This document shows positions 4,871 to 29,371 of a stretch of DNA of 34,439 bases, one piece after another. Both the position numbers and the translations under genes were made by a program. Within the stretch, counting starts at the first letter, position 1. Each line of letters opens with the position of its first letter. The notes under the pieces are model-generated. The model saw nothing but the letters and a program-made list of their open reading frames with translations. It made no database searches and had not been told where the DNA came from. The stretch comes from Gammaproteobacteria bacterium (GTDB taxonomy: Bacteria > Pseudomonadota > Gammaproteobacteria > Steroidobacterales > GCA-2729495), in contig JAJRXW010000056.1 of NCBI GenBank assembly GCA_024276095.1, positions 1-34,439 of the forward strand. The letters run 5' to 3'.

Positions 4871-5620
4871 TTACCTGCGTCCTTTAAGCCATTGCCTGAC
4901 TGCGGCGATATGACGGCGGCTGACCGGCAACGGTTCCGCGACGTGGTGTAACCAGATGCGGTGGCCGCCATCGTGACTTTTTTCCAGCCGGTCCAGGTAA
5001 GCTGTGGCCGCCAGTGCCTTGCGGTGGATACGAATGAACCGCTCTCCGAATTCGGCAGCAAGATTTTTCAACGATTCGTCGAGCAGTTCCTCACCCTTGC
5101 GATGGTACATCCGGACGTACTTCTGTTCGGCCTGAAAAGAAAGCACCTGGTCGACCGGAACCAGCTTCAACCCGTCCCCCTGGCGCACGCAGATACTGTT
5201 TCGGGGTGCTGCGTCAGTTTCCCTGGCGAGCTCCCGCAAGCTTGCCCTGCCCAGCCTGGATGCATGTCGCAAGGCTTCGATCAGGCGCTCCCGGCGTACC
5301 GGTTTGAGTAAATAACCGACGGCATGTGCCTCGAAGGCTTCGATGGCATAGTGGTCATAGGCGGTCGTGAAGATGACGGCGGGCCCCGATTCCAGCGTTG
5401 CCAGGTGCCGCGCAGCTTCCATGCCGTCCATCTCCGGCATGCGGATGTCCAGCAGCAGGATGTCCGGTTGCAGCCGTTCGCATAATTCCAGCGCTTCCAG
5501 GCCATGACCCGCTTCTCCGACCACCTGCCATTCGCTCTGGTCTTCGAGCAGCCGGCACAGGCGTTCTCTGGCATGCGGTTCGTCGTCTGTCACCAGGACT
5601 TTGAAAACAGTGGCCGTCAT
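4871..5620 (-). CDS. algR: LytTR-family response regulator (AlgR-like)
   Basis: Receiver domain (TDDEPHARERLCRLL, DILLLDIRMPEMDGMEAA) plus LytTR DNA-binding domain; followed by hemX/hemY as in the algZR-hem locus. Confidence 0.85.
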   Translation of the reverse strand: MTATVFKVLVTDDEPHARERLCRLLEDQSEWQVVGEAGHGLEALELCERLQPDILLLDIRMPEMDGMEAARHLATLESGPAVIFTTAYDHYAIEAFEAHAVGYLLKPVRRERLIEALRHASRLGRASLRELARETDAAPRNSICVRQGDGLKLVPVDQVLSFQAEQKYVRMYHRKGEELLDESLKNLAAEFGERFIRIHRKALAATAYLDRLEKSHDGGHRIWLHHVAEPLPVSRRHIAAVRQWLKGRR

Positions 5621-5623
5621 CGA

Positions 5624-6694
5624 CTATTCCTGGTAGGGGAAACAGATGGTGACCTGGTAGTGCTCACCGGTATTGACCACATCGAGCGTCGCGCGGCCGT
5701 CAAAAGCCAGCTTCAGCCGCTCCCGTATGTTGCCCAGCGCAATCTGGTTGCCGCCGCGCCGTGCTGTGGTACCGGATCGCGGTACCGGGTTGGATACCGA
5801 AACGTAGATCATGTCGCCGTCCTGGTGGCCGTCAATAGTGACAATACCCCGGCCTGGCAGGGGTTCCACACCGTGATAAATGGCGTTTTCCACCAGTGGC
5901 TGGATGGTCAGGGCCGGAATACGCGCGCGCATGGGCAGGCTGTCGACGTCCCATTCAACGACCAGGCGTTCCCCGAGTCGTTGCTGTTCCATGCGCTGGT
6001 AGATTCGCGTGGTTTCAAGCTCCTGCTTGATCTGGGTTTTTTCATCGGAGACGTTGAGCGAGGCCCTGAACAGGTCGGCCAGGTCTTCAACGGCTTCTTC
6101 CGCGGCGGCCGGGTTGGTGCGTGTAAGTGCGGCGATGGTATTCATGCTGTTGAAAAGAAAATGTGGCCGGATGCGGGCCTGCAGTGCGTGGATACGTGCT
6201 TCGGCTTCCCGTTGTACATTGGTTTGCCATTGATCGGCGATATAGAAATAGCGCAGAACCAGGAACAGCACCAGCATGCCGACCGCAATATTCCGCGACA
6301 GAAAAAACAGGTGATTGGCGGGGAACCAGCCGGACACATCGCCGGTGATGTGCGGACCCCAGAAATAGCCAAGCCAGAAGATCGCTTCGGAAACCAGCAC
6401 GATGTTCAGTGTTACGGCCAGCACGGTCAGCAGTGTTGCGACACGCGTTGAAAAGCGGGACAGCCAGGGCCGCAGCGAACACAGCAGTGCGGCGGCCGTC
6501 AGGCCCATCCAGAGGAAGAACAGGGAGGTCCTGGCCAGGGCCTGGAAAAAGAACGGCCAGCCCGACTGGCCGGCCAGCGTAAAAACGATCGCGACCAGTT
6601 CCGAAATCAGTACCACGCCCAGTACTGCCAGCGGCGCGCACAGGTCGGGCAGGTAGAAGGAATTCGGGGTCGCCTGGTTGTCTCGCTCTGACAA
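5624..6694 (-). CDS. algZ: LytS/YehU-type sensor histidine kinase (AlgZ-like); start assigned to TTG at 6694, ORF is open to 6766
   Basis: IHALQARIRPHFLFNSMNTIAALTRTNP His-kinase motif; ALGNIRERLKLAFDGRA; adjacent to algR-like gene. The ATG at 6766 would overlap the upstream DUF4124 gene. Confidence 0.82.
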   Translation of the reverse strand: MSERDNQATPNSFYLPDLCAPLAVLGVVLISELVAIVFTLAGQSGWPFFFQALARTSLFFLWMGLTAAALLCSLRPWLSRFSTRVATLLTVLAVTLNIVLVSEAIFWLGYFWGPHITGDVSGWFPANHLFFLSRNIAVGMLVLFLVLRYFYIADQWQTNVQREAEARIHALQARIRPHFLFNSMNTIAALTRTNPAAAEEAVEDLADLFRASLNVSDEKTQIKQELETTRIYQRMEQQRLGERLVVEWDVDSLPMRARIPALTIQPLVENAIYHGVEPLPGRGIVTIDGHQDGDMIYVSVSNPVPRSGTTARRGGNQIALGNIRERLKLAFDGRATLDVVNTGEHYQVTICFPYQE

Positions 6695-6698
6695 GGGC

Positions 6699-7253
6699 TT
6701 ACTCGCCGCACCACTCCTTGACAGACCGGCGTGCCGCGATTCGCGCCGCATCGATTTCAGCGTCACTCAGGTATTCGCGCTCTCCGTTTTCACCGGGCTT
6801 GTACAGAATGTGCGCGTCGTCGTATTTTTTCAGCGTGCCGCGCGCCTGCTGGCAGTTGGCCCGGCGCTGCTCCGCGATCTGGGCCTGGTTTTCCTGCTCT
6901 GCTGCAGCATCTTCTGCCTGCTGGGCTTCTCGCAGCGCAGCCACCTCGTTTGCCTCGGCCCGCTTCGCCAGCCTCGCCTGCACGGCGCTTTTGTCGGTTC
7001 GTCTGGAGCTGATCGAAAGCAGCTCGGCATTTCCCGATACCGGCGGCCGATCCGTGTAGTGAATGGTGCCGTCTTTGTCCACCCATTTGTAGACGCTCCC
7101 CTCCTGCGCCGTGGCAGGCTGGTACATCACAAACGCTGCCAATACGGCCAGCGCGAACAGACTGCGGGCCGGAACAGCGAAGCGGCAATTCGAGAGTTTC
7201 ATGATGGGCTTCCTCTGACAGAAACGGGTGGCGGGCACAGCCCGCCACCCCAC
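6699..7253 (-). CDS. DUF4124 domain-containing protein
   Basis: VYKWVDKDGTIHYTDRPP motif after a signal peptide. Confidence 0.9.
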   Translation of the reverse strand: MGWRAVPATRFCQRKPIMKLSNCRFAVPARSLFALAVLAAFVMYQPATAQEGSVYKWVDKDGTIHYTDRPPVSGNAELLSISSRRTDKSAVQARLAKRAEANEVAALREAQQAEDAAAEQENQAQIAEQRRANCQQARGTLKKYDDAHILYKPGENGEREYLSDAEIDAARIAARRSVKEWCGE

Positions 7254-11763: not shown

Positions 11764-11852
11764 GGCATTGTGTGGCCGCTGTCCCCTTTGGAGGGAATAA
11801 AGCGGACCGCAGGGAGCCATCCCGACAAAGGGGACAGCGGGCGCGCAATGCC
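11764..11852. repeat. Long-hairpin element, copy 1 (27-nt arms 24/27 complementary, 35-nt constant core 11791-11825)
   Basis: Core gagggaataaagcggaccgcagggagccatcccga identical to copy 2 at 26348-26382; arms differ between copies but stay complementary. Confidence 0.95.
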
Positions 11853-25393: not shown

Positions 25394-26023
25394 ATGTCTG
25401 TCTTTCCGGATGCCCGATTCCTCACCAGCGCTCATTTGCCCGAGCAGTTCGTGCCCGATACGGGCGCCGAGGTGGCTTTTGCCGGGCGATCCAACGCCGG
25501 CAAGTCCAGTGCAATCAACACCATCGTCAATCGCAAAGGGTTTGCGCGTACCAGCAAAAGCCCCGGGCGTACCCAGCTGATCAATTTTTTCGAGCTGGCC
25601 GCAGGCCGGCGCCTGGTCGATCTGCCGGGCTATGGATATGCCCGGGTTGCAAAGTCGCTGCAACGGCACTGGCGGGAACTGATGGGGGAATACTTCTGCA
25701 ACCGCGAATCCCTGTCAGGCCTGATCCTGGTGGTGGACGTCCGGCGGCTGCTCGGTGATTTCGACTGGCAGATGGTGGACTGGTGCGCCGAGGTGGGCTG
25801 TCCGATCCATGTGCTTTTGACCAAAGCCGACAAGCTGAAACGTGCCCAGGCGGCTAAGGCACTGGCGACGGTCAAGCAGGAACTCGCCGGGGCGGCAACG
25901 CTGCAGCTTTTTTCCGCGCTGCGGCCGCAAGGCACCGATACGGCGCGTACCCGCCTGCAGGACATGCTGGGCAGTGCCGGCGAGGGTGTGGCCCGGGCCT
26001 CCGGCGCTGCTTCTGAAGTCTGA
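25394..26023 (+). CDS. engB: ribosome biogenesis GTP-binding protein YihA/YsxC
   Basis: FAGRSNAGKSSAINTIVNRKGFARTSKSPGRTQLINFFEL, VDLPGYGYARV, LLTKADKL. Confidence 0.96.
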   Translation: MSVFPDARFLTSAHLPEQFVPDTGAEVAFAGRSNAGKSSAINTIVNRKGFARTSKSPGRTQLINFFELAAGRRLVDLPGYGYARVAKSLQRHWRELMGEYFCNRESLSGLILVVDVRRLLGDFDWQMVDWCAEVGCPIHVLLTKADKLKRAQAAKALATVKQELAGAATLQLFSALRPQGTDTARTRLQDMLGSAGEGVARASGAASEV

Positions 26024-26076
26024 GCGAGGGCCTGGGGGCGAGCCGGCAATGAAAATGGCGCCGTAATAACGGCGCC

Positions 26077-26122
26077 AAAAAAAAGGCCCCGGGCACAGTT
26101 TTCAGGGGGAGTGCCCGGGGCC
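26077..26122 (-). terminator. Rho-independent terminator on minus strand
   Basis: GGCCCCGGGCAC-TCCCCCTGAAAACT-GTGCCCGGGGCC-TTTTTTTT. Confidence 0.92.
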
Positions 26123-26201
26123 GACAGTCCACCGGCTTGGGGAAACCGGCTTGATTGTCACCCGCTTAGGGAGGATAGCGGGGGTGTGCATTCCGCACCC
26201 A
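26077..26201 (-). ncRNA. Candidate trans-acting sRNA at the spf/ErsA locus (polA-engB intergenic), ~125 nt
   Basis: Minus strand: sigmaE-like promoter GGAACTT-N16-TCCAA, three compact hairpins with C-rich loops, then 12-bp GC terminator stem plus T8; synteny with Spot 42 (E. coli) and ErsA (P. aeruginosa). Confidence 0.7.
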
Positions 26202-26206
26202 TATGG

Positions 26207-26234
26207 TTGGAACCGCCGTTGCAGAAAAAGTTCC
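26207..26234 (-). promoter_or_regulatory. sigmaE/AlgU-like promoter of the candidate sRNA
   Basis: -35 GGAACTT (26234-26228), 16-nt spacer, -10 TCCAA (26211-26207). Confidence 0.65.
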
Positions 26235-26322
26235 GCAACAGTGCCGGTCGGGCGCCGATCGTTTCGGCAGTGTCCAAATTCATCGGGATCGAGCCGCCGA
26301 CAGGAATCCGGCAGCAAACGCA

Positions 26323-26407
26323 GGCAGTACCTGGGGGCTCCCCTTTGGAGGGAATAAAGCGGACCGCAGGGAGCCATCCCGACAAAGGGGAGGCGCCAGG
26401 TGCTGCC
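26323..26407. repeat. Long-hairpin element, copy 2 (25-nt arms 22/25 complementary, 35-nt core 26348-26382)
   Basis: Core identical to copy 1; different arm sequence. Confidence 0.95.
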
Positions 26408-26475
26408 GAACGATTGGCACGATCATCCGGCTCATGACGCAGCGCCCAAACCTCAAAATGGCGGCAAGCCCCCCG

Positions 26476-26560
26476 AGGAAGCGCACTGGTTGCCCTTTCC
26501 GGCGGATGGCTCCCTGCGGTCCGCCTTATTCCGCCTCCAAGGGCAACCAGCACGCTTCCT
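26476..26560. repeat. Long-hairpin element, copy 3 (inverted orientation; 22-nt arms 20/22 complementary)
   Basis: Reverse complement of core ggaggcggaataaggcggaccgcagggagccatccgccgga closely matches cores 1/2. Confidence 0.9.
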
Positions 26561-26668
26561 CTGACATCGGTGGTCAACCCCCATGTTTCGGCGCAGCAAG
26601 ACCGGACACTGCCGGAACGATCGGTTTCAGCCTGATACAACCAGGCCGATACAACCGCCCCAATACAA

Positions 26669-29371
26669 CTAGTGTGCCTCGTCCCAGTTCGCTCCGGCGC
26701 CCAGATCCACCTTGAGCGGCACCTTCAGGTCGGCGGCGTTGGTCATCAATATTTCTACCTGTTCCCGCACTGTGGCAAGGCAATCTTCGCGAACTTCCAG
26801 CACCAGCTCGTCGTGCACCTGCATGATGATGTTCGCCGCGATGCCGCTTTTCGTCAGCCAGGCATCCACGTCGATCATGGCGCGCTTGATGATGTCCGCT
26901 GCGGTTCCCTGCATGGGGGCGTTGATCGCCGCCCGTTCGGCGTATTGCCGCCGCTGTGCTTGGCGTGCCGTGATTTCGGGCAGATACAGCCGTCGCCCGA
27001 ATACGGTTTCGACAAAGCCCTGTTCCCTGGCCATTTCGCGAGTGTGTTCCATATAGTGGGCGACGCCCGGGTAGCGCTCGAAATACTGCTCGATATAGGC
27101 CTGCGCCTCGCCCTGGCGGACTTTGAGCTGGCGGGCCAGTCCGAAGGCGGACATGCCGTAGATCAGGCCGAAGTTGATGGCCTTGGCCGAACGTCTTTGA
27201 TCCTGGGTGATATCGTCGACCGGTACGTCGAATACCTCGGCGGCGGTGGCGCGATGGATGTCCTGGTTTTCTGCAAAGGCGCGCAGCAGGCCGTCATCGC
27301 CGGACAGGTGGGCCATGATGCGCAGCTCTATTTGCGAATAGTCGGCGGCGAGCAGCAGGTTGCCCCGGTCGGCGATAAAGGCCTGGCGAATGCGGCGTCC
27401 CATTTCATTGCGAATGGGGATGTTCTGCAGGTTGGGGTCCGAAGAAGACAGGCGCCCGGTGGCCGCCACTGCCTGGTGATAGGAAGTATGGATGCGCCCG
27501 GTTTTTTCGTTGATCTGGGTGGGCAGCTTGTCGGTATAAGTCGATTTCAGTTTGCTCAGACTGCGGTAATCGAGAATCAGCTGCGGCAGGGCATAGTCGA
27601 CAGCCAGTTCCTGGAGCACGTCTTCAGCTGTCGATGGCTGGCCCTTGGGTGTCTTGCGGATTACCGGCAGCTCGAGTCGTTCGAACAGGATTGCCTGCAG
27701 CTGCTTGGGTGAACTCAGGTTGAACGGACTGCCGGCCTCGTCATGCGCCTGTCGTTCCAGCTCGGCCATTTTTTTCGCAAATTCGACACTCAGTCTGCCG
27801 AGCAGCTGCCGGTCCACCAGTACGCCGCGGTACTCGATTTTTTCCAGCACGCTCACCAGTGGCTGTTCGATGTCGGTATACAGTTTTTCCAGTGCCTCGA
27901 CCGCCTGGATCTGCGGCCACAGCGCCTGGTGCAGGCTGAGGCAGACATCGGCATCTTCTGCGGCATAGGGTGCTGCCTGTTCCAGCGGCACCTCGTCGAA
28001 CCTGATCTGCTTTGCCCCCTTGCCGGCGACATCTTCGTAGTGAACGGTTTCGATGCCGAGATACTTGCGCGCGACCGAGTCGAGGTCGTGCCGCGAGGCC
28101 GTGCTGTTGAGCACATAGGATTCCAGCATGGTGTCATAGCGCATGCCGGCGAGATCGATGCCGTAGTTTCTCAGGATATGGGCGTCATACTTGAGATGGT
28201 GTCCGACTTTGGCGCGGGATGCGTTTTCCAGCCAGGGCTTCAGTGCGTCGAGCACAGCTTCGCGTGCCAGCTGCGGCGTGGGATCCGTATGGGCCACCGG
28301 CAGATAGGCGGCTTCCCCGGGCGTGACCGAGAACGACAGGCCGACCAGTTCCGCCTCCATGTAGCGGATGCTGGTGGTTTCGGTATCGAGCGCCACCAGC
28401 TCGGCTGCGTTGAGACGTTCCAGCCACCCGTCGAGCTGTTGCCGGGTCAGAATGGTCGTGTAATCGCGTGCCGGGTGCGCGGGTGTCTGCGCAGCAGCGC
28501 TTCCCGGTGCATTTTCTTCGTCTTTTGCCAGCCCTTTCAGCAGGCTGCGCAACTCCAGGTCCCGGTACAGCGCAGTCAGCCGGGCAGTGTCCGGTTCGCC
28601 TGCAACCAGTTCATCGGGCTCGATATCCAGAGCGACGGAGCAGTCGATGGTTGCCAGTTTCCGCGACAGTTCCAGCTGGTCGAAACTGGCTCTGAGGCTT
28701 TCACCCACCTTGCCCTTGATGGCTCCGGCGTTGGCCTTGATATTGTCGACGCTGCCGTACTGCTGCAGCCATTTCGCGGCCGTCTTGGGCCCGACCTTCG
28801 GCACCCCGGGAATATTGTCCGAGCTGTCGCCTACCAGCGCGAGGTAGTCCACCATTTGTGCCGGCGTCACGCCGAATTTTTCTTCCACACCGGATGCATC
28901 CATGCTGCGATCTTTCATAGTGTCCATCAGCGTGATGCGTTCTGTCACCAGCTGCGCCATATCCTTGTCGCCGGTGGAGATGACCGTTTGTATCCCGGCA
29001 TCGCTGGCCTGGGTGGCCAGCGTACCGATGACATCGTCGGCCTCTACGCCGGCGACCTGCAGCAATGGCAGCCCCATGGCGTCTATGGCTTCCAGCAACG
29101 GCTCGATCTGCGCCTGCAGCTCGTCGGGCATCGGCGGCCGGTTGGCCTTGTATTCCGCGAACAGCTCATCGCGAAAAGTTTTTCCCTTTGCGTCCATCAC
29201 CACGGCAAACAGGTCGTAGCGATGCTCACGCTGGAGCTTGTGCAGCATGTTCAGGACACCGACGATAGCGCCGGTAGGTTGCCCGGCAGCCGTGGTCAGT
29301 GGTGGCAGTGCGTGAAAAGCGCGATAGAGATAGGAGGATCCATCCACCAGCATCAGGGATTTTGGCTGCAT
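26669..29371 (-). CDS. polA: DNA polymerase I
   Basis: 900 aa; 5' nuclease, 3'-5' exonuclease (LVALDTETTS) and polymerase motifs (ADYSQIELRIMAHLSGD, QVHDELVLEV). Confidence 0.99.
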   Translation of the reverse strand: MQPKSLMLVDGSSYLYRAFHALPPLTTAAGQPTGAIVGVLNMLHKLQREHRYDLFAVVMDAKGKTFRDELFAEYKANRPPMPDELQAQIEPLLEAIDAMGLPLLQVAGVEADDVIGTLATQASDAGIQTVISTGDKDMAQLVTERITLMDTMKDRSMDASGVEEKFGVTPAQMVDYLALVGDSSDNIPGVPKVGPKTAAKWLQQYGSVDNIKANAGAIKGKVGESLRASFDQLELSRKLATIDCSVALDIEPDELVAGEPDTARLTALYRDLELRSLLKGLAKDEENAPGSAAAQTPAHPARDYTTILTRQQLDGWLERLNAAELVALDTETTSIRYMEAELVGLSFSVTPGEAAYLPVAHTDPTPQLAREAVLDALKPWLENASRAKVGHHLKYDAHILRNYGIDLAGMRYDTMLESYVLNSTASRHDLDSVARKYLGIETVHYEDVAGKGAKQIRFDEVPLEQAAPYAAEDADVCLSLHQALWPQIQAVEALEKLYTDIEQPLVSVLEKIEYRGVLVDRQLLGRLSVEFAKKMAELERQAHDEAGSPFNLSSPKQLQAILFERLELPVIRKTPKGQPSTAEDVLQELAVDYALPQLILDYRSLSKLKSTYTDKLPTQINEKTGRIHTSYHQAVAATGRLSSSDPNLQNIPIRNEMGRRIRQAFIADRGNLLLAADYSQIELRIMAHLSGDDGLLRAFAENQDIHRATAAEVFDVPVDDITQDQRRSAKAINFGLIYGMSAFGLARQLKVRQGEAQAYIEQYFERYPGVAHYMEHTREMAREQGFVETVFGRRLYLPEITARQAQRRQYAERAAINAPMQGTAADIIKRAMIDVDAWLTKSGIAANIIMQVHDELVLEVREDCLATVREQVEILMTNAADLKVPLKVDLGAGANWDEAH

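Follow-up and report, generated by a model that had tools for sequence, protein, structure and literature searches.

Several small RNAs described in separate lineages of the Gammaproteobacteria (a name used here in the GTDB sense, Burkholderiales included) bear on the locus analysed here. The sX13 RNA of Xanthomonas is encoded downstream of polA, is 115 nt long and folds into three stem-loops with C-rich loops (PMC3771888). These loops act against G-rich motifs near the start codons of mRNAs, which sX13 represses, and Hfq is dispensable for this activity (PMC3771888). The 2013 paper on sX13 raised two questions: do other bacteria also encode sRNAs at their polA loci, and do those with a related structure act in the same way (PMC3771888)? 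In Burkholderia, ncS04, or anti-hemB (Rfam RF02837), is a 105-nt transcript that was probed by Northern blot, was reported to bind Hfq and was unchanged under the conditions tested (PMC5688073). ErsA of Pseudomonas is strictly dependent on sigma22 and responds to envelope stress (PMC7565897).

We analysed a 34,439-nt stretch of DNA (hereafter the window) from a Gammaproteobacteria bacterium (Steroidobacterales; GCA-2729495) of an uncultured lineage, comprising positions 1-34,439 of the forward strand of contig JAJRXW010000056.1 in assembly GCA_024276095.1. A preliminary description, made from the sequence of the window, had placed a candidate sRNA on the minus strand, downstream of polA, on its strand and facing engB, with the motif GGAACTT-N16-TCCAA followed within about 125 nt by a 12-bp GC-rich stem and T8 and no ORF in between. 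The coordinates and the fold agreed with this reading (Table 1), both neighbouring genes exceeded their NCBIfam equivalog cut-offs, and the sole ATG ORF to start at the inferred 5' end comprised 14 codons and was unconserved. The 5' end of the sRNA was inferred to lie 5-7 nt past the -10 element and the 3' end was placed at the T run. The window has a single occurrence of the promoter motif, where shuffles predict 0.01, and the 126-nt fold has a free energy of -63.3 kcal/mol (z = -5.5), with none of 200 shuffles equally stable. The terminator stem (26122-26085) is GC-rich and perfect over its 12 bp, with a 14-nt loop, and the T8 run spans 26084-26077. Loop 1 itself contains CCUCC, the anti-Shine-Dalgarno core. 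On the evidence of its sequence and that of its relatives, the locus holds a real, structured and formerly unannotated small regulatory RNA with a sigmaE-type promoter and C-rich loops. The second terminator-like hairpin listed in Table 1 was not evident at the same place in the sister species L003. An algZ/algR-like gene pair, also mentioned in the preliminary description, is present as a LytTR response regulator and histidine kinase pair, for which no NCBIfam equivalog cut-off was reached.

Table 1. Features of the sRNA locus and other genes in the window
Feature	Position	Strand	Basis or remark
-35 element GGAACTT, sigmaE-type promoter	26228..26234	-	same type, with 15-17 nt spacing, in 122/186 homologues
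Promoter spacer, 16 nt	26212..26227	-	
-10 element TCCAA (class consensus TCNNA)	26207..26211	-	
sRNA, ~125 nt	26077..26201	-	fold z, homologues, covariation
5' hairpin, sequence variable among relatives	26183..26200	-	fold and alignment
Stem-loop 1, loop AUCCUCCCUA	26161..26182	-	fold, alignment, covariation
Stem-loop 2, C-rich loop region UUUCCCCAA	26131..26150	-	fold, alignment, covariation
Intrinsic terminator with C-rich loop UCCCCCUGAAAACU on a perfect 12-bp stem, followed by T8	26077..26122	-	
Second, back-to-back terminator-like hairpin: TGGCGCCGTTATTACGGCGCCA, then TTTTCATT	26056..26077	-	directly after first terminator
polA, DNA polymerase I, upstream neighbour	26669..29371	-	same strand as sRNA; NF004397 1227 bits, TIGR00593 976 bits
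engB (yihA/ysxC), convergent neighbour	25394..26023	+	TIGR03598 218 bits, cut-off 124
LytTR response regulator and His_kinase (PF06580) pair, AlgR/AlgZ-like	4871-6751	-	

A lack of conservation of promoter and terminator in relatives had been set beforehand as grounds for dropping the candidate. The candidate passed this check by a wide margin. When 60 related genomes were searched at the DNA level, the sRNA was found in 22, located between polA and engB in all 22, and a sigmaE-type promoter preceded 19 of 22 family sequences; a broader covariance model detected it in 39 of the 41 genomes of the window's family. Across 22 aligned family sequences, CUCCCU in the loop of stem-loop 1 and CCCCA in that of stem-loop 2 were invariant, all three C-rich hairpin loops varied hardly at all, and the stems were compensated within the family (covariation 0.240, compared with 0.162 +/- 0.010 when shuffled and at most 0.09 in slid controls). 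As the preliminary description had proposed, we built a covariance model from relatives, using these 22 sequences (R1), together with a broad model wider than R1 (R2); E-values from both are rough. In a sample of 291 genomes taken evenly across the class, one per species, R1 matched at least 104, a count that is a floor because stricter filters drop weak matches. Class-wide covariation was 0.532, compared with 0.162 when shuffled and at most 0.09 in slid controls, with two-sided changes in 20 of 21 pairs, a figure that leans towards the model since the class-wide alignment was fitted to it. Among these class-wide homologues, 86% of hairpin loops contained CCC (29% in shuffles), and 62% of the RNAs had three or more such loops (1% in shuffles). 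In the reverse direction, 80 named loci were picked by the EngB protein alone and then searched with the model for the sRNA; a match with E < 1e-3 was present in 32, all of them converging with engB just past the 3' end of that gene.

The preliminary description had presented the RNA as a positional counterpart of Spot 42 and ErsA and as an ErsA-like envelope-stress sRNA. The Rfam models of both, which it had named as a check, scored the window below their gathering cut-offs (Spot 42, RF00021, 16.9 bits against 80; ErsA, RF01719, 17.2 bits against 50), as did the sX13 model (RF02232, 20.2 bits against 50), and these scores were no better than those of unrelated families such as 6C (21.5). The anti-hemB model gave 36.7 bits (E 7.7e-7), also below its gathering cut-off of 49.5. 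By sequence, the nearest catalogued family is thus Burkholderia anti-hemB, not Spot 42 or ErsA. Matches to ncS54, 6C, Scr3202 and PVT1_2 were below cut-off and reflected terminator or composition only.

The resemblance to anti-hemB comprises the terminator and a stem-loop 1 that is almost identical letter for letter (CCCCGCU..UCCUCCCU.AGCGGG), including the loop CCUCCCU flanked by CCCGC and GCGGG, whereas the aligned Rfam consensus lacks the C-rich second loop. When searched against the same 291 genomes, RF02837 independently picked largely the places found by R1 (13 genomes above its cut-off), and the two models coincide in many genomes, among them the majority of those above the cut-off. The best-scoring anti-hemB match (L133) has neither the sigmaE motif nor the polA/engB neighbourhood. 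We rejected a second anti-hemB-like match in the same genome (C187) as a paralogue, as it consists of a terminator with a CCCCC loop after a 513-aa ORF and has no stem-loop 1; being a plain terminator, it indicates that about 32 bits with the anti-hemB model can mean a terminator alone.

Next in likeness is sX13, with which the window RNA shares its position downstream of polA and three stems with C-rich apical loops. R2 scored both sX13 loci at 35.6 and 35.5 bits (E ~1e-6), and one of four tandem copies in genome G239 scored 51.2 bits with R1 and 48.3 bits with the sX13 model (cut-off 50). The two RNAs differ in that sX13 has no sigmaE motif upstream. ErsA adjoins engB in two named Pseudomonas loci, so that the claim of a common locus stood, and it resembles the window RNA in its C-rich loops; its sigmaE-type (AlgU/sigma22) control corresponds to that predicted for the window RNA from the promoter motif. 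R2 matched ErsA at three loci, with scores of 28.5-30.1 bits and E-values from 2e-5 to 5e-5; no match remained when the terminator was left out, and for this reason we kept ErsA as a weak match. It is tied in, weakly, through locus, promoter type, C-rich loops and terminator hairpin, not through sequence elsewhere. The comparison with Spot 42 held for position: E. coli spf was found between polA and yihA, on the polA strand as is the window RNA, but it lacks the C-rich loops and scored 15.6 bits (E 0.07) with R2. The preliminary reading was otherwise supported, with a conserved sigmaE-type promoter and both RpoE and an RseA_N protein encoded in the genome.

Taking these comparisons together, we consider it highly probable that the window encodes an independently transcribed, sigmaE-controlled, trans-acting sRNA whose C-rich loops repress G-rich translation starts and which belongs to a class-wide polA/engB family. 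Under envelope stress, RpoE (sigmaE) would be freed from its RseA-type anti-sigma factor and would start the sRNA at the GGAACTT-N16-TCCAA promoter. The predicted fold of the RNA of about 125 nt consists of a 5' hairpin, two hairpins that expose UCCUCCCU and UUCCCCAA as C-rich loops, and a terminator whose own loop is the third to be rich in C. At the translation starts of target mRNAs, these loops would pair with sequences that are G-rich or of Shine-Dalgarno type, and most of the mRNAs, by analogy to sX13, would be repressed through occlusion of their ribosome-binding sites. Such targets would be expected to carry AGGGAGG or GGGG where translation starts. From the evidence on ncS04, sX13 and ErsA, and from the CCUCC in loop 1, the RNA is inferred to be a repressor, driven by sigmaE, that acts on G-rich ribosome-binding sites; transcription in the window's organism, its trigger by stress, the pairing of the loops and the targets are likewise predicted. 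In the window's genome the leader of hfq, which sX13 targets, contains just an ordinary Shine-Dalgarno sequence, and hfq was rejected as a conserved target, as mostly ordinary Shine-Dalgarno sequences precede it across the window's family. The same RNA might instead have protein titration, in place of mRNA pairing, as its main mode of action, the protein being Hfq or a regulator that binds C or U. Three repeated C-rich loops do resemble repeated protein sites, and ncS04 is reported to bind Hfq (PMC5688073), but repression by sX13 depends on C-rich motifs in the sRNA together with G-rich ones in the mRNA and can dispense with Hfq (PMC3771888), and the loops contain no GGA, so that the RNA is not a CsrA/RsmA sponge; we regard titration as unlikely, if the best placed of the alternatives to mRNA pairing by a sigmaE-controlled sRNA.

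Control by sigmaE is suggested by the promoter region. A scan of the 100 nt upstream of 186 homologues with the pattern [GA]AAC[TC][TAC]-N15-17-TCNNA identified a sigmaE-type promoter in 122, compared with 2.4 (maximum 6) in shuffles and 2 on the reverse strand. The spacer was 16 nt in 101 of these 122, the distance from the -35 element to stem-loop 1 was roughly 40-55 nt in almost every promoter-bearing homologue, and the sigmaE-regulon form GGAACTT-N16-TCNNA was conserved in homologues. The window's genome encodes RpoE (equivalog, 303.7 bits, cut-off 236), with the RseA_N anti-sigma protein after it, and the sequence GAACTT-N16-TCTAT upstream of rpoE would, as expected, fit autoregulation. 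A strict promoter pattern applied genome-wide gave 3 matches and 3 in the control, with no enrichment; we set this count aside as evidence for a regulon, as the pattern is too rare to show one. The sigmaE motif is not universal, being missing in some lineages, including a few members of the window's family and Xanthomonas sX13. It could therefore be argued that the RNA is under housekeeping sigma70 in the window's organism and that its sigmaE-like motif is ancestral or coincidental. Sigma70-like -10 elements do stand in place of the sigmaE motif in L011, L015 and L021 (genus g3 of the window's family), and sX13 and several other homologues have such elements or nothing recognisable upstream. 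However, the window motif is a full sigmaE consensus, no sigma70-like site was found within 25900-26800, and the RpoE-RseA pair is intact in the genome. Sigma70 control thus seems somewhat less likely still than protein titration, and we retain sigmaE control. Within genus g3, the upstream sequences of L009, L018 and L019 can be read as either sigmaE- or sigma70-type, an apparent promoter turnover when set beside L011, L015 and L021.

We retrieved all places matched by R1 in the 104 class genomes and examined their neighbourhoods within a radius of 1.5 kb. The sRNA lay within this distance of polA and/or engB in 84 of the 104 (both genes in 44, polA only in 14, engB only in 26, neither in 20). 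Among the 20 with neither, ORFs compared by eye indicated that five (G070, G232, G174, G318 and G196) have retained a cytochrome c gene resembling the one after engB in the window, and that G242 keeps a DsbA-like gene. The orientation was standard in 80 genomes, and in 4 the cassette was inverted between engB and polA. The inverted cassettes (L060, L081, L103 and L122) lie between the same genes and one of them, L060, has an evident sigmaE-type element (GAACTT...GTCATA), which argues that the sRNA cassette is a self-contained unit. Tandem cassettes were present at L056 (in G239), L078, L087, L115, L118, L154, L178 and L020/L024, as two copies or, in G239, as four, and such duplication arose repeatedly in unrelated families. 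L154, with two copies, belongs to the culturable Ectothiorhodospira mobilis DSM 4180. In L066 and L076 (G269 and G129) the homologue has moved beside an apparent rimO gene and has kept an evident GAACTT...ATCTTA promoter.

These arrangements bear on whether the RNA is nothing but the polA transcription terminator, or is derived from the polA 3'UTR, with no promoter of its own. It does lie downstream of polA on the same strand in most genomes, and its terminator hairpin is strong. Such a reading is nevertheless very improbable in view of the conserved sigmaE-type promoter directly upstream, the two further hairpins with invariant loops that precede the terminator, the inverted and tandem cassettes, the 26 genomes in which the sRNA neighbours engB but polA is absent from the surrounding 1.5 kb, and the discrete transcript formed by the Burkholderia homologue (PMC5688073). 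An independently transcribed sRNA that is conserved at this locus could still serve in part as the polA terminator. Promoter, structure, loops and locus are all conserved by computational analysis. There is hardly any prospect that the RNA encodes a small protein, as Spot 42 encodes SpfP: a 14-codon ATG ORF does stand at the inferred 5' end (MGAECTPPLSSLSG), but it is missing or different in relatives, the spacing from loop to loop varies in all three frames, and we rejected a coding function as no reading frame is conserved among relatives.

The class-wide family appears to unite RNAs of Burkholderia and Xanthomonas and, less firmly, of Pseudomonas that earlier work had described apart from one another. 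We think it probable, with less assurance than we have in the function proposed for the window RNA, that anti-hemB, sX13, probably ErsA and about 100 mostly unannotated homologues form one ancient polA/engB family. Its ancestor would have been sigmaE-controlled with C-rich anti-Shine-Dalgarno loops, and its members would have undergone repeated promoter change, inversion in place and tandem duplication; in enterics, Spot 42 would have taken over the locus or diverged there. Rfam models placed few of the 291 genomes above their cut-offs (anti-hemB 13, sX13 2, ErsA 1 and Spot 42 none), whereas a homologue was present in at least 104. The member in the window is itself new, and its kind is already known. 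The unification across the class and the conserved stress promoter appear to be unpublished in the open-access literature searched, in which no paper named ErsA and sX13 together and the phrase 'downstream of polA' occurred with an sRNA only in the sX13 paper (PMC3771888). To the first question raised in that paper our data answer yes, class-wide, and they supply a common model and a common promoter as well as species suited to tests. If the unification is true, the sigmaE-controlled C-loop sRNA would rank among the stress RNAs most widely retained in the Gammaproteobacteria, and one that is largely unannotated.

A REP/BIME-like palindromic repeat, GCGGACCGCAGGGAGCCATCC, was observed in the window at 26359-26379 (+), 26504-26524 (-) and 11802-11822 (+). 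The genome carries 37 copies of it, frequently paired in inverted orientation at a distance of about 145 nt, and the presence of one such pair between polA and the sRNA helps to explain the long 470-nt spacer in the window's genus.
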